From positions 186,001 through 250,000 of the forward strand of contig NZ_JAUOTP010000001.1 of assembly GCF_030546695.1 (NCBI RefSeq): a stretch of DNA of 64,000 nt, written 5' to 3'. Positions 22,273 through 32,209 of this stretch are shown piece by piece; the first letter of the stretch is position 1, and each line of letters opens with the position of its first letter. A program made the translations under genes and the position numbers. The notes beneath the pieces are model-generated. The model saw only the letters and a list, made by a program, of their open reading frames with translations. It was not told the DNA's origin and did no database searches. Source of the stretch: Sphingomonas natans (GTDB lineage Bacteria; Pseudomonadota; Alphaproteobacteria; Sphingomonadales; Sphingomonadaceae).

Positions 22273-23664
22273 GTGGGGACAGAGAGAATCCGGACGGGAC
22301 GGATCGCGCTGATCGCGCTTGCGATCGCGGCTGTGCTCGTGTCCGTCATCCTCTCCTTCGGCGGCGTCAAAGGCGATCGCGCCGAGGCGGCGACACACGT
22401 CGTGGCCGACCAGCATCTCGGCGTCGCCTCCTGCGCGGGCACGACCTGCCACGGCCGGCAGGAAGGCGACGGCGCCGTCGTCCGCCAGGACGAGATCCTT
22501 CGCTGGCAGGACGAATCGAGCCAGGCGGGCGCGCATTCGCGGGCGTGGCGCGTGCTCGGCGAGCCGCGCGGACTCGCAATCGGCGCCAAGCTCGGCATCG
22601 GCAATCCGCAGAATGCCGCCGAGTGCCTCGGCTGCCATGCCGATCCCGCGCCGAATCACGGCGCCCGCTGGACCGTGTCGGACGGCGTCGGCTGCGAGGC
22701 GTGTCACGGGCCGGCGAGCGGGAACTGGCTCACCAGCCATTATGCGGTTGGCGCGACGCATGCGAAGAACGCGTCGGGCGGGCTGTTCCCGATCGACCAG
22801 CCTTCGGCACGCGCGGATCGCTGCCTCGATTGCCATTTCGGCAGCGGGCGCGACGGCCAGTTCGTCGATCACCGGATCATGGCCGCGGGCCACCCGCGAA
22901 TCGCGTTCGAGCTCGATCTGTTCACGACGCTGGAGCAGCATTGGAACGAGGACGCGGACTATACGAAGCGCAAGGGCATGCCTTCGACGATCAAGACCTG
23001 GGCCGTCGGCCAGGCGGCGGCGGTGCAGCGCGCGCTGAGCGTCTATTCCGGGCCACGCGGCACCGCGGGCGTGGCGGCCGAGCCCTATTTCTTCGATTGC
23101 CACAGCTGCCACCGGCGGATCTCGGACGATGCCGATTTCCGGCCGACGGCGATCGCCAATCCGGAACGGCCGATGCCGGTGGGCGCACCGCCTTTCCAGG
23201 ACGAGAATATGATCATGCTGTCGGCAGCGGCGCGCGTCGTCGCGCCCGCCGAGGGGCAGCGCTTCGATGCGGCGGCGCGCGGCTTTCACGCCTCGCTCGC
23301 GCAGGGGCGTCCGCAGGCGCTGGCGGCGGCTGGGCGGCTGAAGGCGGCGGCGGCATCGCTGGAGAGCGCGATGGCGGCGCGCAGCTTCTCGACGAGCGAG
23401 ACGCTGGCGATCGTGGCCGCGGTCGCGGGCGAGGGCGGGCGGCGCTACACCGATTATGAGGCGAGCGCGCAGGCGGTGATGAGCCTCGATACGCTGCTCA
23501 ACGCGCTCGTGAAGCAAGGCGCGGTCAGCCAGGGCCAGGCGCGCTCGGTGCGCGGGCCGATCGACGCCGCTTACCGTGCGGTGCGCGATCCCAATGCGTA
23601 CAAGCCGCTCGAATTCCGCGCCGCGATCCAGCGCGCGGCTTCGGCGGTCGGAGCGCTGCGTTGA
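22273..23664 (+). CDS. Pentaheme c-type cytochrome, c554-like
   Basis: Exported multiheme cytochrome of 463 residues, GTG start. Residues 11-40 form a signal or anchor segment (IALIALAIAAVLVSVILSF, then an AEAA cleavage-like site). Heme sites are CAGTTCH at residue 54 (a CX4CH form), CLGCH at 118, CEACH at 141, CLDCH at 184 and CHSCH at 276. The spacing and the CX4CH first site recall the cytochrome c554 family. The last 180 residues are Ala-rich helices without heme sites. It is first of four overlapping genes; its stop overlaps the TTG start of the next. Likely carries electrons in the periplasm; donor and acceptor unknown. Confidence 0.85.
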   Translation: MGTERIRTGRIALIALAIAAVLVSVILSFGGVKGDRAEAATHVVADQHLGVASCAGTTCHGRQEGDGAVVRQDEILRWQDESSQAGAHSRAWRVLGEPRGLAIGAKLGIGNPQNAAECLGCHADPAPNHGARWTVSDGVGCEACHGPASGNWLTSHYAVGATHAKNASGGLFPIDQPSARADRCLDCHFGSGRDGQFVDHRIMAAGHPRIAFELDLFTTLEQHWNEDADYTKRKGMPSTIKTWAVGQAAAVQRALSVYSGPRGTAGVAAEPYFFDCHSCHRRISDDADFRPTAIANPERPMPVGAPPFQDENMIMLSAAARVVAPAEGQRFDAAARGFHASLAQGRPQALAAAGRLKAAAASLESAMAARSFSTSETLAIVAAVAGEGGRRYTDYEASAQAVMSLDTLLNALVKQGAVSQGQARSVRGPIDAAYRAVRDPNAYKPLEFRAAIQRAASAVGALR

Positions 23665-25643
23665 GCCTTGGCCGTCGTCTGATCGGCGCGGTGGTGGGCT
23701 GCGCATTCCTGCTGTCGTCGTGCGGCGGGGGCGGGGGGAGCAGCACGACCGCGACCAGCACCGATACGAGCACCGGAACCTCAACGCCGACGGGCAACAA
23801 TTTCACGGCCCCCGCGCAGGAAGCGCTGACGACCGCGGATGTCGGCAGGATCTTGTCGCAGGCCGCGACCGAGGCGACCGCGCGGGGGATGCCCTCGGTG
23901 ATCGCGGTCTCGGATCGGGTCGGCAATATCCTCGCGGTCTACAACATGACCGGGGCGAGGCCGACCGCGACGATACCCTTGCCGGCGACGGGCACCGGAC
24001 TCGACGTGCAGGGCGCGACGATCCCCGCAGGCGGCGGCGCGATCGCCAAGGCGGTGACCGCCGCCTATCTGTCGAGTTCGGGCAATGCGTTCACGACGCG
24101 CACCGCCAGCCAGATCGTCCAGCAGCATTTCCCGCCCGCGCCGACGACGGTGGGGCTCGAGAGCGGGCCTCTGTTCGGCGTGCAATTCAGTCAATTGCCC
24201 TGCTCGGACCTGTCGAGCCGCTATATCGCGACGGGCGGATCGGCGGCGCTGATCGGGCCGAAGCGCTCGCCTCTGGGCCTGTCGGCCGATCCGGGCGGCA
24301 TTCCGCTCTACAAGAATGGCGTGCTCGTCGGCGGGATCGGCGTGATGGGCGACGGGGTCTACGGGCTCGATGCCAACACGCTCGATGTCGATGTCGACAA
24401 TGAGGAATATATCGCGCTGGCGGGCACGAGCGGCTTCCAGGCACCCGAGGGGATCACCGCCGACAAGATCACCGTCGACGGCACGACATTGCGCTTCATC
24501 GATGCGGTGGCGAGCGGCCTCAAGAGCAATCCCGCGCAGGCGCCTGCCTTCGCCAGCCTGACCTCCGGCCAGCTCGTCTCGGTGCGCGGCTATTTCGCCG
24601 AGACGGGGACGCCGGCTTTGGTTGCGGGACAGGCTTATGGGACCGAGGCGTCGGGCATCCGCGCCTCGACCGCGGCCGAATTCTCGAACCGCGACGCGTT
24701 CGTGCTGAGCGACGGCGCGGGCAATGATCGCTTCCCCGTGATCGGCGCGACCGACGCGGGCGATGTCGCGCAGCCGCTGACGCAGACCGAGGTGCGCACG
24801 ATCCTCGAGGAAGCCTTCACGATCATGACGCGCGCGCGGGGGCAGATCCGCCGCCCGCTCGACAGCCGCGCGCAGGTCTCGATCACGGTTGTCGATACGC
24901 GCGGCAATTCGCTGGGGCTGGTGCGCTCTCCCGATGCGCCGATCTTCGGCACCGACGTGGCGCTGCAGAAGGCGCGGACCGCGGCCTTCTTCTCGAGTGC
25001 GAAGGCGGGGACCGATCTCGCCGCCGATCCGTCGGCCGACGTGCGCGGACTGGCCGCGGCGGAACGCGCGTTTCTCGGCGACCAATCCTCGCAGCTCGGC
25101 AAGTTCGCCTATACCGATCGCGCGCACGGGCTGGTCTCGCGGCCTTATTTTCCAGACGGCGAAGTGGGGCGTCCGAACGGCCCCTTCTCGCGCCCGATCG
25201 CACAGTGGAGCCCGTTCTCGACCGGGCTGCAGACCGCGTTGATCCTGAACAATCTCGTCGCGCATCTCGGTTACGTGCAGGGCGCAGCGACGGATACGCC
25301 GCAGCGCTGCACGAACCTGCCCGTGACGCCCTCGGGCAAATCGCGCCTTGCCAACGGCATCCAGATCTTCCCGGGTTCGGTGCCGATCTATCGCGGCAGC
25401 ACGCTGATCGGCGGGATCGGCGTGTCGGGCGACGGCATCGACCAGGACGACATGATCTCGTTCCTCGGCCTCAACAATGCCGGCGCCAAGCTGAACACCG
25501 GCGTCGGCAATGCGCCGGCGGCGATCCGCTCCGATCAGGTCGTCGTCGCGCTCGGCGATAAATCGGTGCGGCTGCGCTATGTCGGCTGTCCGTTCGCGCC
25601 CTTCCTCGATTCAAGCGATCAAGATGCCTGCGGCGGCAAATAG
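23661..25643 (+). CDS. Lipoprotein with two GlcG/HbpS-like (DUF336) heme-binding-type domains
   Basis: 660 residues from a TTG start that overlaps the previous stop (TTGA). The signal peptide ends in the lipobox LLSSC, followed by a Gly/Ser/Thr-rich tether (to about residue 45). Two copies of a GlcG/HbpS-like fold follow, about 50-270 and 375-640; each has a segment like IPLYKNGVLVGGIGVMGDG or VPIYRGSTLIGGIGVSGDG. HbpS-type proteins bind heme or small molecules, but binding here is not shown by the sequence alone. Being anchored between two multiheme cytochromes and a barrel suggests an accessory role in the same complex. Confidence 0.8.
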   Translation: MSLGRRLIGAVVGCAFLLSSCGGGGGSSTTATSTDTSTGTSTPTGNNFTAPAQEALTTADVGRILSQAATEATARGMPSVIAVSDRVGNILAVYNMTGARPTATIPLPATGTGLDVQGATIPAGGGAIAKAVTAAYLSSSGNAFTTRTASQIVQQHFPPAPTTVGLESGPLFGVQFSQLPCSDLSSRYIATGGSAALIGPKRSPLGLSADPGGIPLYKNGVLVGGIGVMGDGVYGLDANTLDVDVDNEEYIALAGTSGFQAPEGITADKITVDGTTLRFIDAVASGLKSNPAQAPAFASLTSGQLVSVRGYFAETGTPALVAGQAYGTEASGIRASTAAEFSNRDAFVLSDGAGNDRFPVIGATDAGDVAQPLTQTEVRTILEEAFTIMTRARGQIRRPLDSRAQVSITVVDTRGNSLGLVRSPDAPIFGTDVALQKARTAAFFSSAKAGTDLAADPSADVRGLAAAERAFLGDQSSQLGKFAYTDRAHGLVSRPYFPDGEVGRPNGPFSRPIAQWSPFSTGLQTALILNNLVAHLGYVQGAATDTPQRCTNLPVTPSGKSRLANGIQIFPGSVPIYRGSTLIGGIGVSGDGIDQDDMISFLGLNNAGAKLNTGVGNAPAAIRSDQVVVALGDKSVRLRYVGCPFAPFLDSSDQDACGGK

Positions 25644-27615
25644 AGCGCTGCTCTTCTGGCTGCTGGCGGGCGTGGCGACGCCCGTCTTCGCGCAGGCCGC
25701 GCCGCCAGTCGACCGGGCGACGCAGGACGTGGTCGATACCGCCGCGCGCCTGCCCAAGGGTTCGGACGTTCCCAATCCGCACCCGCAAGCGCAGCTGACG
25801 CCCGCGCCGCCGCTGCCGGTGACCGACCACAAGGCGCTGGAGCCGCAGGCGGTCGCGCCCGGGGTCGATCCGATGCTGGAGGGGCGGCGGCGCCCCGGCG
25901 TGGCGCGGCCCGATCTGCCCGACACGATTGTGCAGGACAATCCGGGCGCGGTGCGCCCGCCGCCGCCCGACAATTTCCCGACCGACGAGCTACCGATCCC
26001 CGATCGCTGGCGGCTGATCACGGCCTTGTGCGCGGACAAGAATTACGTCGCGGTGCAGGTCGTGTGCGGGCCCAAGACCGATCCCTATCACCAGAATCTG
26101 CTGAAGGGCGATCGGCCGCTCGATCCGCACAAATTCCCGCTGCCGATCCACGGCGAGGACTGGTTCCTGACGCTGAGCGGTACATCCGACACGATCGTCG
26201 AGCCGCGCTCCTTCCCGACGCCGGTGAGCGTGCAGACGACGGCGCGGCCGGACAGCCCCGACGTGTTCGGCAAGGGATCGAGCCTCGTCCTCGCGCAGAC
26301 CTTCATCGCCAGCGTCGGGCTGGTGAAGGGCTCGACGGCGTTCATGCCGCCGCACATCGAATATCGCGTCACGCTCGCCTACAACGTCAATTATGTCGAC
26401 GTGAACGAGCGGCGCGTGCTCGACGTACGGCCGTCATCGCCGACGCACCGAACCGATCGCTTCCTCGGCGTGCAGGAAGCCTTTTTCGATTACCATCTGC
26501 GCAACGTCTCGGATCGCTACGATTTCGATTCGCTGCGCGTCGGCATCCAGGAGTTCCAGGCGGATTTCCGAGGCTTCCTGTTCAACGACAGCGCGCTGGC
26601 GATCCGGCTGTTCGGCAATCGCGACAATAACCGCTTCCAGTATAATCTCGCCGTGTTCCGCCGGCTGGAGAAGGACACGAACAGCGGGCTCAACGATCTC
26701 GGCCAGACGCCGCGCGACGATTATGTGTTCTTGGCCAATCTCTATCGGCAGGATCTGCCGGTGCCCGGTTTCACGAGCCAGCTGATCGGCGTCTACAATC
26801 GCAATCGCGAGGGCAACGGCGTCGAGATCGACCATAATGGCTTTCCGGTGCGCCCGGCTCTGCTCGGCGATCTGCGCGGCCACGATTATGACGCTTATTA
26901 TCTCGGCTATAATGGCGACGGGCATTTCGACCGGATCAACCTGACCGTGTCGGCTTACGGCGTGTTCGGGCGCGACAGCCACAATTTCCTGACCGGCGAG
27001 CGCAGCCGGATCCGCGCCTTCTTCGCCGCGGCCGAACCCTCGATCGATTTCTCGTGGGTGCGCGTGCGCGGCGCGGCGATGTTCGCGAGCGGCGACAGCG
27101 ATCCCTACGACAAGACCGAGAATGGCTATGACGCCATCCTCGAGAACCCGATCTTCGCGGGCGCAGATACGAGCTACTGGATCCGGCAGACGATCCCGTT
27201 TGCGGGCGGCGGGCGCGTGATCGGGGTCAACGGGCGCAATGGCATCCTCGCCGATCTGCGCTCGTCCAAGGATCAGGGCCAATCCAACTTCATCAATCCG
27301 GGCACGGTGCTGGCCGGCGCGGGCGCGGATTTCGATCTGACGCCGACCTTGCGGCTTTCGACCAACGCCAATCATCTGTGGTTCCAGACTACGAAGGTGC
27401 TGCAGGTGCTGCGATCCGAAGGCACGATCCCGAAGGATATCGGCTGGGACCTGTCGGCGGCGGCGATCTGGCGGCCCAAGATGACGCAGAATATCGTCGT
27501 GCGCCTGTCGGCGGCGACATTGCAGGCGGGCAAGGGTTTTCGTGACCTGTTCGATCAGCGCAGCGGTTCGAAGGCCTATTATTCCGTGCTCGGCAATGTG
27601 ATCGTGAGTTTCTGA
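25624..27615 (+). CDS. Predicted outer membrane beta-barrel of the multiheme cytochrome operon
   Basis: 663 residues from ATG 25624, overlapping the lipoprotein gene by 20 bases. A signal peptide (RALLFWLLAGVATPVFAQA) is followed by about 100 Pro-rich residues and then by alternating aromatic/polar strands to a C-terminal phenylalanine (LGNVIVSF), the outer membrane barrel signature. Strand-like pieces such as IRLFGNRDNNRFQYNLAVF and YDAYYLGYNGDGHFDRINL support this. I do not recognise a named family. A role as the porin of a porin-cytochrome conduit is inferred from context. The next gene follows at TGATG. Confidence 0.75.
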   Translation: MPAAANRALLFWLLAGVATPVFAQAAPPVDRATQDVVDTAARLPKGSDVPNPHPQAQLTPAPPLPVTDHKALEPQAVAPGVDPMLEGRRRPGVARPDLPDTIVQDNPGAVRPPPPDNFPTDELPIPDRWRLITALCADKNYVAVQVVCGPKTDPYHQNLLKGDRPLDPHKFPLPIHGEDWFLTLSGTSDTIVEPRSFPTPVSVQTTARPDSPDVFGKGSSLVLAQTFIASVGLVKGSTAFMPPHIEYRVTLAYNVNYVDVNERRVLDVRPSSPTHRTDRFLGVQEAFFDYHLRNVSDRYDFDSLRVGIQEFQADFRGFLFNDSALAIRLFGNRDNNRFQYNLAVFRRLEKDTNSGLNDLGQTPRDDYVFLANLYRQDLPVPGFTSQLIGVYNRNREGNGVEIDHNGFPVRPALLGDLRGHDYDAYYLGYNGDGHFDRINLTVSAYGVFGRDSHNFLTGERSRIRAFFAAAEPSIDFSWVRVRGAAMFASGDSDPYDKTENGYDAILENPIFAGADTSYWIRQTIPFAGGGRVIGVNGRNGILADLRSSKDQGQSNFINPGTVLAGAGADFDLTPTLRLSTNANHLWFQTTKVLQVLRSEGTIPKDIGWDLSAAAIWRPKMTQNIVVRLSAATLQAGKGFRDLFDQRSGSKAYYSVLGNVIVSF

Positions 27616-27640
27616 TGCGCGGTCGCCTCTCCTTCTCCGG

Positions 27641-27740
27641 TCGTCCCGAACGTGGTTCAGGATCCAGGTTCCGCGCTCTCTTCGGGCGGCTTGCTCGCGG
27701 CAAGGTCCGGTCATGGATGCTGAAACGCGTTCAGCATGAC
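27641..27740. repeat. Dispersed repeat material at the 5' end of the decaheme gene
   Basis: The stretch holds words typical of sphingomonad intergenic repeats (GTCGTCCCGAACGTGGTTCAG at its left and GTTCAGCATGAC at its right). It includes a perfect palindrome, ATGCTGAA-ACGCG-TTCAGCAT, at 27717-27737, which contains the ATG I choose as start of the decaheme gene. Repeat membership is from memory; the palindrome is directly visible. Confidence 0.6.
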
Positions 27741-30700
27741 GGGAAGTGGATCGGCGCGGCGCTGGGCCTCCTCCTGCTCGCCGCTCTGCTGCCCGCGACG
27801 CGCTCGCTCGCGTCCGAGAGCGAGAAGCCTGTCGCGCGGGTCTATCCGGCTTATGCCGATGCGCCGCAGGCGCAGACGCCCGAGAAGGTCAAAGCCAAGT
27901 CGGAAGGCTGTCTCGATTGCCACACGGCGACCGAGGCGCCGTCGATGCACAAGTCGGAGGCGGTGCTGCTCGGCTGCGCGGATTGCCATGGCGGCGATCC
28001 CTATGTGCGGATCGGGGCGGGGCTGAAGGCGGACGATCCCGCCTATGTCGCCGCGCGCGACAAGGCGCATGTGCTGCCGCGCTTCCCGGAGAGCTGGGGC
28101 TGGCCCAAGTCCGCCAACCCGAAGCGCAGCTACACGTTGCTCAATCGCGAGGCGCCCGAATATATCCGCTTCGTCAATCCGAGCGACTATCGCGTCGCGC
28201 GCCAGGCGTGTGGCGCCTGCCATCTCGAGACGATCGAGGCGGCCGAGCGATCTTTGATGTCGACGGGCACGATGCTGTGGGGCGGGGCCGCCTATAATAA
28301 CGGCATATTGCCCTACAAGAATTACATCACGGGCGAGGCCTATACGAAGATCGGCGAGCCCGCGAAGCTGCTGTCGCCGGGCGCGCCTCCGGGGACGGTG
28401 ACGCCGCAGCAGGCCGCGCGCGGGGCGCTGCCGCTGCTCTATCCGCTGCCGACCTGGCAGGTGACGCCGCCGGGCGACATCTTCCGCGTGTTCGAGCGCG
28501 GCGGCCGCACGATCGGCAGCGGCTTCGCCGAGATCGGGCTGCCCAATCCTTCGGGCAATATCCAGCGCCTCGACGAGAATGGCCGGCCGGAGCTCAAGCA
28601 GTCGAACCGCGGTCCGGGCACCGGCTTGCGCGTGGCGATCCCCGTGCTCAACATCCACAAGACGCGCCTCAACGACCCGTACATGTGGTTCATGGGCACG
28701 AACGACCAGCCGGGCGACTATCGCAATTCGGGCTGCGCGGGTTGCCATGTCGTCTATGCGAACGATCGCGATCCCAAGCACAGCCTCGGCTGGGCGGCGT
28801 ACGGGCGCGACGGGCAGACCGGGACCAAGGACCCGACCATCTCCAGCCTGATGGAGCGCGCGGCGAGCGACCTGCACGGCGCCGAGGCGATGCCCGCCAA
28901 CCATCCGGCGACGGAGAAGGAGAAGGGCCACCCGATCGAGCACAGCTTCACGCGCGCGATCCCGACCGCGCAGTGCATGAACTGCCACATGCACCAGCCC
29001 AACATCTTCCTGAATTCGTACCTCGGCTACACGATGTGGGATTATGAATCCGACGCGCCGCTGATGTGGCCCGAGAAGCAGAAATATCCGACCGCCGCCG
29101 AGACGCGCGAAGTGGAGGATCGCAATCCCGAGGCGGCGTCCCCGCGCGGCAAGTGGAGCGACGTGGATTTCCTGCGCCGCGTCTATGACGACGTGAACCC
29201 GAAGGCGAAGGACACGCAGTTCGCCGACTATCACGGCCATGGCTGGAATTTCCGCGGCATCTTCAAGCGCGATCGCGAGGGCAATCTGCTCGACAAGGAC
29301 GGCAAGATCGTCTCGCCCGACGATGCCGAGAAGTTCAGCAAGAAGGGCATGCCCGACTTCGCGCCGGTCGGCGAACAGAAGGGCAAGGCGGTCCATATGA
29401 TGGACATCCACGCCGAAAAGGGCCTGCAATGCGCCGACTGCCATTTCGCGCAGGACAGCCACGGCAACGGCCTGATCTATGGCGAGGTTGCCAATGCGGT
29501 GGAGATCGGCTGCAAGGATTGCCACGGCACCGCCGACGCCTTCCCGACGCTGAAGACGTCCGGGCCCGCGGCCAGGCCGGGCGGCAACGATCTGTCGGTA
29601 TTGCGCAACGGCGATGGCAAGCGCCGCTTCGAGTGGACGACGGGCGCGGCCGGCGAGCGCGTGCTGATCCAGCGTTCGATCGTCGATCCCAAGCTCGAAT
29701 GGCGCGTGTCGCTCGTCAAGAATTCGGTGGATCGCGCTCTGCCCGAATTCAATCCCAAGGCGGCGCGCGCGAAGCTGATGGGCAAGGAGGGCGTCGAGAC
29801 CGGGCGCTTCACCTTCGGCCCCGGCATCGCGCCCGAGAATCGTGCGCACGATCCGAACAAGATGGCCTGCTTCACCTGCCATCTGTCGTGGACGACCTCG
29901 TGCGGCGGCTGCCACCTGCCGATCGAGGCGAACTGGAAGACCAAGGAGCATCACTTCAAGGGCGACGAGGAGACGCGCAACTTCGCGACCTACAACCCGC
30001 AGGTGGCGCGCGAGGACATGTTCCAGCTCGGCATCCACATGACGACCAAGGGCAACGAGATCGCACCGGTGCGCTCGACCTCGGCGCTGGTCCTGTCCTC
30101 GACCAACATCAACCGCGAGCGGATCTACGTGCAGCAGGCGCCGATCTCGTCGATCGGCTTCTCGAGCCAGGCGTTCGCGCCGCACTTCCCGCACACGGTG
30201 CGCACGACCGAGACCAAGACCTGCTCGGACTGCCACCTGTCCGCCAAGAACGACAACAACGCGATCATGGCGCAGCTGATGCTGACCGGCACGGGCAGCG
30301 TGAACTTCGTCGGCATGCATGCGTGGCTCGGCCTCGAAGGCGGGGTCGAGGCGGTGCGCGTGACCGAGTGGCAGGAGCCGCAGGCGGTGATCGGCTCCTA
30401 TCTCCAGCGTTATGCCTATCCTGACTGGTTCAAGCTCCATGTCGATCGCAACAAGCGCGAGCTGGTCAACTGGAACCGCGGCCAGACCTTCGACAAGAAG
30501 GGATCGGGCGAAACCAACCCGGTCGAGAGCTTCCGCAACATCGTCCAGAAGACGGGCGGGTCGGCGCAGTGCGTCCAGCTGCGCGGCGAATATCTGTTCG
30601 TCGCCGAGGGCAAGGGCGGCTTCCGCGCCTATGACGTCGCCTCGGTCGCCAACAAGGGCTATTCGGACAAGATCACGAGCGCGCCTTTCTCGCCGCTCGG

Positions 30701-31709
30701 CCAGCGCGATCATGTGAAGAGCACGAACGCGACGTGCATGGCGATCCCGACCAACCAGCCGATCAATCCGCTGCGCAACACGCCCGTTATGCGCCAGATG
30801 AACCAGGAGCAGGCGTTCGACCCGATCTACCATTATGCGGTGGTGACGGATGCGAGCGAGGGGCTGATCCTCGTCAATATCGACACGCTGGCCGACGGCG
30901 AGCCGCGCAACAATTTCCTGAAGCGCGCGGTGACGTGGAATCCCGGCAATGTGCTGGCGGGCGCACGGCACGTGCAGCTGGCCGGGCATATCGCCTACAT
31001 CACCGCCGACGTGGGCCTGGTGGTCGTCGATCTCGCTGATCCGCTGCGGCCGAAGCTGGCGGCGACGGTGGCGCTGAAGGATGCGCGCGCGAGCGCGATC
31101 CAGTTCCGCTATTTGTGGGTGACGACCGCCGAGGGGCTGCGCGTGCTCGACGTGACCAAGCTGACCGCGCCCAGGCTGCTGCCCGCGATCGTGCCGCTTG
31201 CCGATGCGCGCCGCATCTATGTCGCGCGGACCTACGCCTATGTCGCGGCGGGGGCGGACGGTCTGGTCATCGTCAACGTGACCAATCCCGAGGCGCCCAA
31301 AGTCTATCTGAAGGAGAATTTCGGCGGGCGGATGACGGATGCGTCGGACGTCGTGATCGGCGCGACCAATGCCTCGCTCTTCGCTTATGTCGCGGACGGC
31401 CGGAACGGCATGAAGGTGATCCAGCTGACCTCGCCCGCGAGCCAGCCCAATTTCTACGGCTTCTCGCCCGCGCCCAAGCCCGAGCTGATCGCCTGGGCGA
31501 AGACGCCCGCGCCGGCGCGCGCGCTCAGCCGCGGGCTCGATCGCGACCGCGCGGTGGACGAGACGGGCGGACAGATCGCGGTATTCGGCCGCGTCGGATC
31601 GCGCCCGTTCACGCGCGTGGAAATGGAGCGCTTCTTCCTCAACAAGAGTGGCGCGCCGTGGAAGGTGATGGACGAGGGCGACCTGAAAGACTGGGCGGCG
31701 GCGCGCTGA
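27717..31709 (+). CDS. Decaheme c-type cytochrome fused to an LVIVD-repeat beta-propeller
   Basis: 1330 residues from ATG 27717 (MLKRVQHDGKWIGAALGLLL, signal peptide ending near SLA). Ten CXXCH sites at about residues 65, 87, 165, 340, 420, 572, 599, 718, 729 and 836. From about 940 to 1270 there are LVIVD-type blades (GLVVVDLADPLRPKLAATV, GLRVLDVTKLTAPRLLPAI, GLVIVNVTNPEAPKVYLKE), usually a surface or periplasmic propeller. ATG 27615 (TGATG with the barrel gene) would add 34 Arg-rich residues translated from a repeat, and is less likely. Expected to move electrons at or across the outer membrane with the three upstream products; substrate unknown. Confidence 0.85.
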   Translation: MLKRVQHDGKWIGAALGLLLLAALLPATRSLASESEKPVARVYPAYADAPQAQTPEKVKAKSEGCLDCHTATEAPSMHKSEAVLLGCADCHGGDPYVRIGAGLKADDPAYVAARDKAHVLPRFPESWGWPKSANPKRSYTLLNREAPEYIRFVNPSDYRVARQACGACHLETIEAAERSLMSTGTMLWGGAAYNNGILPYKNYITGEAYTKIGEPAKLLSPGAPPGTVTPQQAARGALPLLYPLPTWQVTPPGDIFRVFERGGRTIGSGFAEIGLPNPSGNIQRLDENGRPELKQSNRGPGTGLRVAIPVLNIHKTRLNDPYMWFMGTNDQPGDYRNSGCAGCHVVYANDRDPKHSLGWAAYGRDGQTGTKDPTISSLMERAASDLHGAEAMPANHPATEKEKGHPIEHSFTRAIPTAQCMNCHMHQPNIFLNSYLGYTMWDYESDAPLMWPEKQKYPTAAETREVEDRNPEAASPRGKWSDVDFLRRVYDDVNPKAKDTQFADYHGHGWNFRGIFKRDREGNLLDKDGKIVSPDDAEKFSKKGMPDFAPVGEQKGKAVHMMDIHAEKGLQCADCHFAQDSHGNGLIYGEVANAVEIGCKDCHGTADAFPTLKTSGPAARPGGNDLSVLRNGDGKRRFEWTTGAAGERVLIQRSIVDPKLEWRVSLVKNSVDRALPEFNPKAARAKLMGKEGVETGRFTFGPGIAPENRAHDPNKMACFTCHLSWTTSCGGCHLPIEANWKTKEHHFKGDEETRNFATYNPQVAREDMFQLGIHMTTKGNEIAPVRSTSALVLSSTNINRERIYVQQAPISSIGFSSQAFAPHFPHTVRTTETKTCSDCHLSAKNDNNAIMAQLMLTGTGSVNFVGMHAWLGLEGGVEAVRVTEWQEPQAVIGSYLQRYAYPDWFKLHVDRNKRELVNWNRGQTFDKKGSGETNPVESFRNIVQKTGGSAQCVQLRGEYLFVAEGKGGFRAYDVASVANKGYSDKITSAPFSPLGQRDHVKSTNATCMAIPTNQPINPLRNTPVMRQMNQEQAFDPIYHYAVVTDASEGLILVNIDTLADGEPRNNFLKRAVTWNPGNVLAGARHVQLAGHIAYITADVGLVVVDLADPLRPKLAATVALKDARASAIQFRYLWVTTAEGLRVLDVTKLTAPRLLPAIVPLADARRIYVARTYAYVAAGADGLVIVNVTNPEAPKVYLKENFGGRMTDASDVVIGATNASLFAYVADGRNGMKVIQLTSPASQPNFYGFSPAPKPELIAWAKTPAPARALSRGLDRDRAVDETGGQIAVFGRVGSRPFTRVEMERFFLNKSGAPWKVMDEGDLKDWAAAR

Positions 31710-31732
31710 CGCGGGACGGGCTTCGCCCCGCG
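31710..31732 (+). terminator. Possible hairpin after the cytochrome operon
   Basis: CGCGGG (31710-31715) pairs with CCCGCG (31727-31732) around a loop that can itself pair as GGGC/GCCC. It starts right after the decaheme stop codon. No T-tract follows, so it may act with Rho or only protect the mRNA end. Confidence 0.4.
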
Positions 31733-31823
31733 TGAGGACCGCCTTAACCTTATTTCTCGTCGCTCATCGGAATGTCGGCATCTGGCGCGTTGGGGGCATT
31801 CCGCTTTCATCGACGAGGCCGCC

Positions 31824-32057
31824 ATGCTCCGACCGCGACACTGTGCTGCCCCGATCCTGCTGCTGCTGTGCACCGCCTGCGGCAGCAGCCACAGCGTCGA
31901 CGAGCCCAATCCGGCGATCGCGCATCAGGTCAACGAGGCAGCGAGCAATATCAGCAGCGCGGACGGGCGAGCGGAGATGAGCCCGCCGATGACGCCGGCC
32001 GAAGCCGGTGCGACGATGCGGACATCGGCGACCACGCGGCCGCCGCAGCAGCCCTGA
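31824..32057 (+). CDS. Small putative lipoprotein
   Basis: 77 residues with signal APILLLLCTAC, whose last residues fit a lipobox, followed by a short polar Ser/Ala/Pro-rich mature part (about 58 residues) without a recognisable domain. GAGG lies about six bases before ATG 31824. It ends 10 bases before the tRNA-Lys 3' end on the other strand. I do not recognise a family; role unknown. Confidence 0.55.
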   Translation: MLRPRHCAAPILLLLCTACGSSHSVDEPNPAIAHQVNEAASNISSADGRAEMSPPMTPAEAGATMRTSATTRPPQQP

Positions 32058-32067
32058 TCGGGGGAAG

Positions 32068-32143
32068 TGGTGGGTCCGGCGGGATTCGAACCCGCGACCT
32101 ACAGATTAAAAGTCCGGTGCTCTACCAACTGAGCTACGGACCC
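32068..32143 (-). tRNA. tRNA-Lys (anticodon TTT)
   Basis: Folds as a standard cloverleaf on the minus strand: acceptor GGGTCCG/CGGACCC, D-arm AGCTCAGTTGGTAGAGC, anticodon loop CTTTTAA, T-arm GCGGGTTCGAATCCCGC, and encoded CCA (32068-32070). The 27-43 position of the anticodon stem is a C-T mismatch, otherwise pairing is complete. Confidence 0.97.
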
Positions 32144-32209
32144 ACGCGGCGAGTTCCATACGGGGGCGGGCGCGGATCGCAACCCCTGGCGTGTCCGATC
32201 GCGATGTCG

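Follow-up and report, generated by a model that had tools for sequence, protein, structure and literature searches.

A four-gene multiheme cytochrome and outer-membrane barrel locus of Sphingomonas natans, apparently the outer half of an unnamed electron pathway

Pathways that carry electrons across the outer membrane have mostly been studied in a few anaerobic metal reducers. MtrCAB, MtoAB and PioAB combine an inner-membrane entry with a periplasmic multiheme cytochrome, an outer-membrane barrel and a large multiheme protein, and the Geobacter Pcc conduit (OmbB-OmaB-OmcB) unites a porin and multiheme cytochromes in one cluster. The ext cluster of Geobacter sulfurreducens (extHIJKLMNOPQS) encodes, according to excerpts of two studies, a rhodanese-like lipoprotein, an outer-membrane protein, a periplasmic pentaheme cytochrome, ExtM and ExtN (PMC5877670, PMC6148476); less selenite and tellurite is reduced when extI is lost (PMC5877670, in part), and the exposed components of Geobacter conduits are described as strongly variable (PMC6148476, in part). 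As far as its excerpted text goes, a survey of 148 species reported MtrCAB from one alphaproteobacterium (PMC8805035). Here we analyse a cluster of four genes, P1 to P4, at positions 22273-31709 of a 64,000-nucleotide stretch of the Sphingomonas natans genome (contig NZ_JAUOTP010000001.1, positions 186,001 to 250,000; hereafter the window). The four genes look like the outer half of an electron pathway, seemingly complete and as yet without a name, that leads from the cell interior to the outer membrane, the candidate inner half being an oxidoreductase (OXR) with cyclic-nucleotide-binding (cNMP), flavin and Fe-S parts, a membrane cytochrome b (CYB) and an FHA-decaheme protein (FHAC). No description of the cluster was found in the PMC open-licence full-text literature among the matches listed (titles and opening lines of abstracts).

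The two halves together resemble MtrCAB, MtoAB and PioAB in having an entry at the inner membrane, a multiheme protein in the periplasm, a barrel in the outer membrane and a large multiheme protein, but they contain neither MtrA, MtrB or MtrC/OmcA family members nor a surface lipoprotein cytochrome. The absence of an MtrA/MtrB signature, remarked on in a preliminary description of the locus, is borne out by Pfam and NCBIfam searches, which give no membership in MtrA/MtrB or OmcA/MtrC: P1 reached 20.8 bits against OmcA/MtrC (cut-off 209) and 13.8 against DmsE (192), and FHAC 31.8 against DmsE (192), all of them as fragments. With Pcc the locus has a porin and multiheme cytochromes in one cluster in common, but no Pfam or NCBIfam family, in a comparison made at the level of families only. 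The composition of ext parallels P2, P3, P1 and P4, with homology seen for P4 only; P2 is HbpS-like and not a rhodanese, P3 is without an Ext family match, and P4 is a single decaheme protein fused to a propeller. Entry in ext is by the Rieske/cytochrome b pair ExtO/ExtP, whereas here it would be by OXR and FHAC. P1, P2 and P3 gave no NCBIfam Ext match, a result obtained with the Ext models of the library unchecked and with no direct comparison to the ExtH, ExtI and ExtKL sequences.

The four proteins

Open reading frame translations recovered all four genes in one direction on the plus strand, as first proposed: P1 (22273..23664, 463 aa), a membrane-anchored or exported pentaheme c-type cytochrome related to c554; P2 (23661..25643, 660 aa), an outer-membrane-type lipoprotein with two HbpS/GlcG-like domains; P3 (25624..27615), an outer-membrane beta-barrel; and P4 (27615..31709, 1364 aa), an exported c-type cytochrome with ten hemes and a fused LVIVD beta-propeller. 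These assignments agree with the preliminary description and follow from heme motifs, the lipobox LSSC of P2, the C-terminal ...VIVSF of the barrel, with its final Phe, and Pfam. Of the gene overlaps given there, those of 4 bases (P1/P2) and 20 bases (P2/P3) were recovered, but the last, put at about 3, is a single base (TGATG at P3/P4).

The five heme sites of P1, four CXXCH and one CX4CH, recur in 85 of 85 homologues above the chosen length limit, and the protein matches Pfam Cytochrome_C554 (2.2e-7) and c554 in the PDB (0.0018). It has one N-terminal transmembrane-like stretch and, besides the five motif histidines, five that are invariant in an alignment of 18 sequences (A5: H48, H116, H160, H167 and H183), so that each of the five hemes could be bis-His ligated; we propose that P1 is a periplasmic electron relay. 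P2 belongs to the HbpS/GlcG-like family PF03928 (2.1e-22, 80 bits against a cut-off of 25), which matches it in three stretches that we read as two domains; its closest solved relative is EfgA (8.6e-7), and it may bind heme or substrate. Neither P1 nor P3 had a match in PHROGs.

The reading frame of P3 is open from 25510, with the signal-peptide start at the ATG at 25624. An AlphaFold2 model (AF2; mean predicted local distance difference score, pLDDT, 65; predicted template-modelling score, pTM, 0.67) has 18 predicted strands, and a fold search against solved structures found an AlgE/Occ-like fold. From the 18-strand AlgE and OprD (Occ) channels P3 differs by its low identity (9-14%), its cytochrome gene setting and its long N-terminal arm, which is Pro-rich, spans about 155 residues between the mature N-terminus and the first strand and carries invariant positions; 107 of these residues were modelled at pLDDT below 50. 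The window P3 matched nothing in Pfam or NCBIfam at E 0.1 and did not qualify for Alginate_exp (PF13372), a family that matched 7 of 63 P3 homologues (E up to 1, best 6.2e-4); four other families matched among the 63 were taken as chance. MtrB has 26 strands in the solved complex. A prediction of 28 strands for MtrB, against 18 for P3, appears in the excerpted part of PMC5877670. MtrB was not listed in the fold search with P3, which by itself excludes nothing; the 18-strand AlgE/Occ-like prediction does not support an MtrB-like sheath. On this model, P3 would be about as likely a substrate or docking channel as a barrel threaded by a cytochrome in the manner of MtrAB.

P4 has a hydrophobic signal stretch at residues ~48-66, ten CXXCH motifs, also found in 101 of 101 homologues above the chosen length limit, and an LVIVD match in Pfam (2.7e-15) besides short cytochrome matches in Pfam and NCBIfam. 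It resembles the NCBIfam models ExtM (5e-20, 71 bits, cut-off 800) and ExtN (8e-7, 28 bits, cut-off 200). A link is provided by an intermediate family of six ExtM-like proteins with 10-12 hemes from other Pseudomonadota (L196-L201), with which the heme part of P4 aligns collinearly over 546 columns (hhalign 99.9%, E 1e-33); all six match ExtM (best 1.9e-70) and all six ExtN (best 1.4e-19), and the one for which bit scores were given reached 169 bits to ExtM, below the cut-off of 800. This homology puts P4 in the ExtM/ExtN superfamily, fused to a propeller; judged by remote sequence similarity, it is a superfamily relative of ExtM and ExtN and not an equivalog. Two of the six intermediate loci (L200, L201) also encode a neighbour of 381-382 aa that has five heme motifs and, by reading and without a family scan, a NapC/NrfH-like N-terminus. 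Thirteen non-motif histidines of P4 are invariant in 48 sequences, so each heme could be bis-His ligated and there is no sign of a missing ligand; alongside this, an open catalytic heme site may exist. A PDB sequence search with P4 gave one chance match (E 0.23), and one with the A3 profile gave no match at 0.01. An AF2 model computed from 48 sequences for the heme part (residues 66-975) was too poor to use, at a mean pLDDT of 42.8. Membership of the cytochromes in octaheme tetrathionate reductase, which the preliminary description had named as a finding that would overturn its reading, was not found: P4 has ten heme sites rather than eight and reached 15.5 bits over ~50 residues against TIGR04315 (cut-off 375). 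We propose P4 as the terminal electron-transfer or reductase unit.

Conservation and linkage to an inner-membrane module

A scan of named genomes returned 382 loci with a P4 relative, and the locus counts below refer to the best 80 of these (L053-L132), whose hosts are by title sphingomonads, erythrobacters, caulobacters and unplaced Alphaproteobacteria or Proteobacteria. P4 is present in 80, P3 in 77, P2 in 73 (or 72, as in L057 one frame covers P2 and P3) and P1 in 69, with order and strand shared. Ten of the 11 loci without P1 end at a contig edge and one, L074, is a true exception, with ~8 kb upstream of P3 covered and neither P1 nor P2; the four-gene order thus holds in 69 of the 70 loci that no contig end truncates. 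That the genes are conserved together, which had been proposed as a check, holds in these loci and in the regions of the class sample, and the conservation of gene set and heme motifs exceeds chance by a wide margin. Among the four proteins P4 is the best conserved, with median identities to the window proteins of 70% for P4, 64% for P3, 62% for P2 and 55% for P1 in the 80 loci, whose choice by best score favours P4, and of 59, 53, 49 and 37% in L208-L224. Presence is patchy (P4 in 13 of 59 relatives and in 2 of 7 genomes of the genus).

Neighbourhood clustering brought out further genes beside the cluster in many of the 80 loci. At 1e-8, matches were found to a phosphodiesterase (PDE) in 58, FHAC in 56, CYB in 52, OXR in 51, a TPR protein in 49 and a CHASE2 cyclase in 31. 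OXR (830 aa) combines an FAD/pyridine-nucleotide part with two cNMP-binding stretches and a ferredoxin part of four 4Fe-4S clusters, and 16 of its cysteines are kept in 95% or more of 73 sequences; its domains are those of DmsB/HydN-type four-cluster ferredoxins, YpdA/TrxR flavoproteins and CRP-type cNMP proteins, but here all are in one protein, which scores below the curated cut-off in all 25 NCBIfam families shown. Hydropathy gives CYB four or more membrane stretches, and six of its histidines are kept in 95% or more of 74 sequences. FHAC has an FHA-like N-terminus, one transmembrane stretch and ten CXXCH, a number found in 76 of 78 sequences (eight in the other two). Pfam FHA matched the FHAC of L053 and of genome G680, and related models matched that of the window genome; in the PDB, FHAC found FHA proteins only (0.005-0.01), and in a profile comparison with P4 it gave one short heme-motif match at 28% probability. 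PDE matches SpdA (7e-40) and cAMP phosphodiesterase (2e-26), in both cases below the cut-off. In the window genome the inner half is encoded on contig C8, as TPR protein (155402-156346, minus strand), OXR (156417-158915), CYB (159070-159969), FHAC (159941-161809) and PDE (161802-162680), the last four on the plus strand; three CHASE2 proteins are encoded on contigs other than C8 and C5, the contig of the window.

Twenty further regions were fetched, L209-L224 from other families in the class sample, L225 and L226 from other class families in the phylum sample and L227 and L228 from the window's family, and the region of G680, from another class, was also compared; a strong class genome, G065, was left unfetched, its P4 being a 504-base fragment at a contig end. 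The order OXR>CYB>FHAC>P2>P3>P4 is collinear in 14 of the 16 regions L209-L224, or 14 of 18 with L225 and L226. L224 reads CYB>FHAC>P2>P3>P4>OXR>P1, L223, a 10-kb contig, P3>P4>OXR>P1, and G680 CYB>FHAC>P2>P3>P4>P1, while in L227 and L228, from the window's family, P1>P2>P3>P4 faces PDE, FHAC, CYB and OXR. The preliminary description had read the four genes as a porin-cytochrome conduit, and the conserved multiheme and outer-membrane set agrees with this; since OXR-CYB-FHAC lies in the same collinear run elsewhere, however, they are better seen as an outer half with its own inner-membrane entry than as a free-standing conduit.

The halves also occur together. Among 59 relatives, 12 genomes have P4 and FHAC, one (67% complete) P4 only and 46 neither; in the class sample (n=289) the counts are 20 with strong P4 and strong OXR, 6 with OXR only and 263 with neither, and in the phylum sample (n=398) 11 with strong P4 and FHAC, 4 with FHAC only and 383 with neither (Fisher p 1e-11 to 7e-26; the three samples have a few genomes in common). 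These counts leave out weak P4 rows, in each of which a short section of the heme or propeller part matched, in 5 of 25 class genomes (G080, G170, G194, G242, G295) and 9 of 20 phylum genomes (G080, G433, G568, G350, G356, G396, G451, G529, G658). They also leave out OXR rows below 600 bits as generic domain matches: OXR matched 265 of 289 genomes, of which 26 were kept, and the best genome dropped, among the matches listed, had 115 bits.

Proposed pathway and rival explanations

Gene and domain content, gene order, co-occurrence, and heme and Fe-S ligands are observed, and from them we infer electron direction, acceptor, control, topology, the crossing of the outer membrane and the position of P4 outside or in the periplasm. 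We consider it probable, with appreciable room for doubt, that the four genes provide the outer half, in periplasm and outer membrane, of a multiheme chain linked to NAD(P)H in which P4 reduces an external or periplasmic acceptor. OXR, a cytoplasmic flavoprotein, would take electrons from NAD(P)H through FAD to its four 4Fe-4S clusters and hand them to heme b of CYB; FHAC, with a cytoplasmic FHA domain, one transmembrane helix and ten periplasmic c-hemes, would pass them to P1 and P1 to P4, held at the outer membrane by P2 and by P3 as docking barrel or substrate channel. The acceptor might be a metal or metalloid oxyanion, a guess from the kinship to ExtM and ExtN which also lends indirect support to the oxyanion or metal respiration first suggested for the locus. 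The cNMP domains, together with the SpdA/CpdA-like PDE and the CHASE2 cyclase of many loci, suggest cyclic-nucleotide control, which would act at OXR, and the FHA domain of FHAC suggests an input from phosphorylation.

More tentatively, the system may be a distinct class of trans-envelope electron export, driven by NAD(P)H, switched by cyclic nucleotides and by FHA/phosphorylation, and finishing at an 18-strand barrel that bears an ExtM/ExtN-like decaheme-propeller; the entry part, OXR-CYB-FHAC-P1, would be modular and feed other ends (as in L204 and L206), and the class would be patchily widespread in supposedly aerobic Alphaproteobacteria, on at least one conjugative plasmid. If so, a conserved complete chain in sphingomonads, caulobacters and erythrobacters, among them a cultured strain whose conjugative plasmid encodes both halves, would make the disposal of excess electrons, or metal and metalloid reduction, genetically testable there, and cyclic-nucleotide control would be tied to an electron-export chain within the oxidoreductase itself.

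Several observations weigh against the proposed NAD(P)H-linked chain. In the window genome the halves are on different contigs; in L225 (G582) they lie apart on opposite strands, and in L226 (G687) a glutamate-dehydrogenase-like gene (GDH) intervenes in FHAC>P1>GDH>P2>P3>P4, both genomes belonging to other families of the class. The co-occurrence statistics ignore kinship. P4 is not a lipoprotein, nothing was found that puts it on the surface, and in our comparison it is well conserved, unlike the variable exposed components in the excerpts on Geobacter conduits (PMC6148476). A barrel of 18 strands is narrower than MtrB and more like exporters and substrate channels, so P3 may not carry electrons. 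Electron flow could also be inward. Finally, 6 class and 4 phylum genomes have OXR or FHAC with P4 undetected. In two of these (G083, G481), P2 or P2-P3 run up to the contig end, and in G346 the contig ends ~0.7 kb past FHAC of OXR-CYB-FHAC; G371 and G480 have OXR and FHAC, and G178 OXR alone in the fetched 20 kb. The entry module is accompanied by P1 in G315, G118, G163 and G110, and in G118 and G163 also by another five-heme protein and a 535-aa protein without a family. The presence of P1 with the entry module in genomes without a detected P4 makes P1 look like a general relay and the end module look exchangeable. An alternative end module beside OXR-CYB-FHAC-P1 (L204:13747-17165, L206:6793-10309) consists of two proteins, one C554-like with five hemes (604-641 aa) and the other, of 535-539 aa, without a Pfam family at 0.01.

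The explanation that survives best beside this chain is a periplasmic reductase with its own channel, for which we see a serious, if somewhat less than even, chance. P3 would admit a soluble substrate (an oxyanion or small organic molecule), P4 would reduce it in the periplasm and P2 would bind heme or substrate, with no electrons crossing the outer membrane; as this differs in the last step only, our confidence in it overlaps with that in the chain. Against it, the ten hemes, the large propeller and the invariant positions of the P3 arm suggest protein docking over free diffusion, and the conserved non-motif histidines of P4 show no sign of a missing heme ligand, though one may be missing.

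Less likely, in our view, is a system for selenite or tellurite reduction, the counterpart of ext, that would explain metalloid reduction by some Sphingomonadales. The homology of P4 to ExtM/ExtN speaks for it, as does the parallel to the ext set of lipoprotein, outer-membrane protein, pentaheme and ExtM/ExtN cytochromes. Several tellurite-reducing aerobic anoxygenic phototrophs are sphingomonads. The window genome encodes photosynthetic reaction-centre L/M-type proteins (PF00124; C13:163880-165536), so the host may be such a phototroph, and the label of aerobic chemoheterotroph, from which it had been argued that the host would not need an electron conduit, may not fit. The tellurite idea is attractive because of these genes and because aerobic anoxygenic phototrophs are described as reducing tellurite in excerpts of two studies (PMC5023272, PMC5488091). 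Against it, P1, P2 and P3 match no NCBIfam Ext model, a reductase role for ExtM/ExtN was not found in the literature passages available, and the enzyme purified from Erythromonas (62+55 kDa, nearest mass-spectrometric match GroEL; PMC5488091, in part) neither fits nor excludes P4. Nor does P4 clearly track phototrophy: reaction-centre genes occur in 4 of 13 relatives with P4 and 5 of 46 without (Fisher p 0.10), which leaves a link to phototrophy unsupported.

Electron uptake, an inward chain from an external or periplasmic donor through P4, P1, FHAC and CYB to OXR that would make NAD(P)H, we regard as quite improbable. Multiheme chains run both ways, as in Mto and Pio, and the flavoprotein and 4Fe-4S part of OXR is reversible in principle, but a donor-oxidising enzyme is absent from the gene run and the neighbours look heterotrophic. 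These neighbours, named by reading their sequences and not by family scan, are GDH-like in 28 of the 80 loci, acetolactate-synthase-like in 20 and aldehyde-dehydrogenase-like in 20, and a metabolic link to them is possible.

An ordinary nutrient porin with unrelated cytochromes alongside is very improbable: it has only the similarity of the P3 fold to substrate channels in its favour and is already contradicted by the conserved gene order and by the junction to a redox module elsewhere. Of the refuting outcome named at the outset, a barrel of a nutrient porin family, we found the likeness of fold to AlgE/Occ but not a sequence-family match.

Genomic setting

The G+C content of the cluster (0.63-0.71) is similar to that of its flanks, and the order metK-lnt-VOC-P1-P4 on the left is kept in the sister genome G001, in which FHAC and P4 are ~94 kb apart on one contig. 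On the right, tRNA-Lys (32068-32143 in the window) with folK and nitrilase lies ~1.1 Mb away in G001, with a breakpoint downstream of P4 at window positions 31710-32150, near tRNA-Lys. A kept left flank and a displaced right flank point to rearrangement rather than fresh insertion, and we dropped the idea that the cluster is a foreign island. The flanking genes tested from the window (lnt, metK, a glyoxalase-like gene, folK, uracil-DNA glycosylase and two more) had no match in the 80 loci. Directly after the start of P4 lies an interspersed repeat (approximately 27618..27745, plus strand), which, counting itself, matches its own genome 28 times, in full or in part, at 24 places; as four of these match on both strands, the repeat is near-palindromic. 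It extends the N-terminal region of P4 in frame before the signal peptide, stands outside the proposed mechanism and is absent from G001, whose frame continues straight.

Most of P4 is also present in 13 plasmid records (12 Sphingobium, 1 Sphingopyxis). One of them, the conjugative megaplasmid pMSHV of the soil bacterium Sphingobium herbicidovorans MH, has both halves, annotated in RefSeq with cautious product names; there (L269 1-27900) two-partner-secretion genes (ShlB/FhaC family) flank the system, and a hypothetical gene of 6.3 kb directly precedes it.

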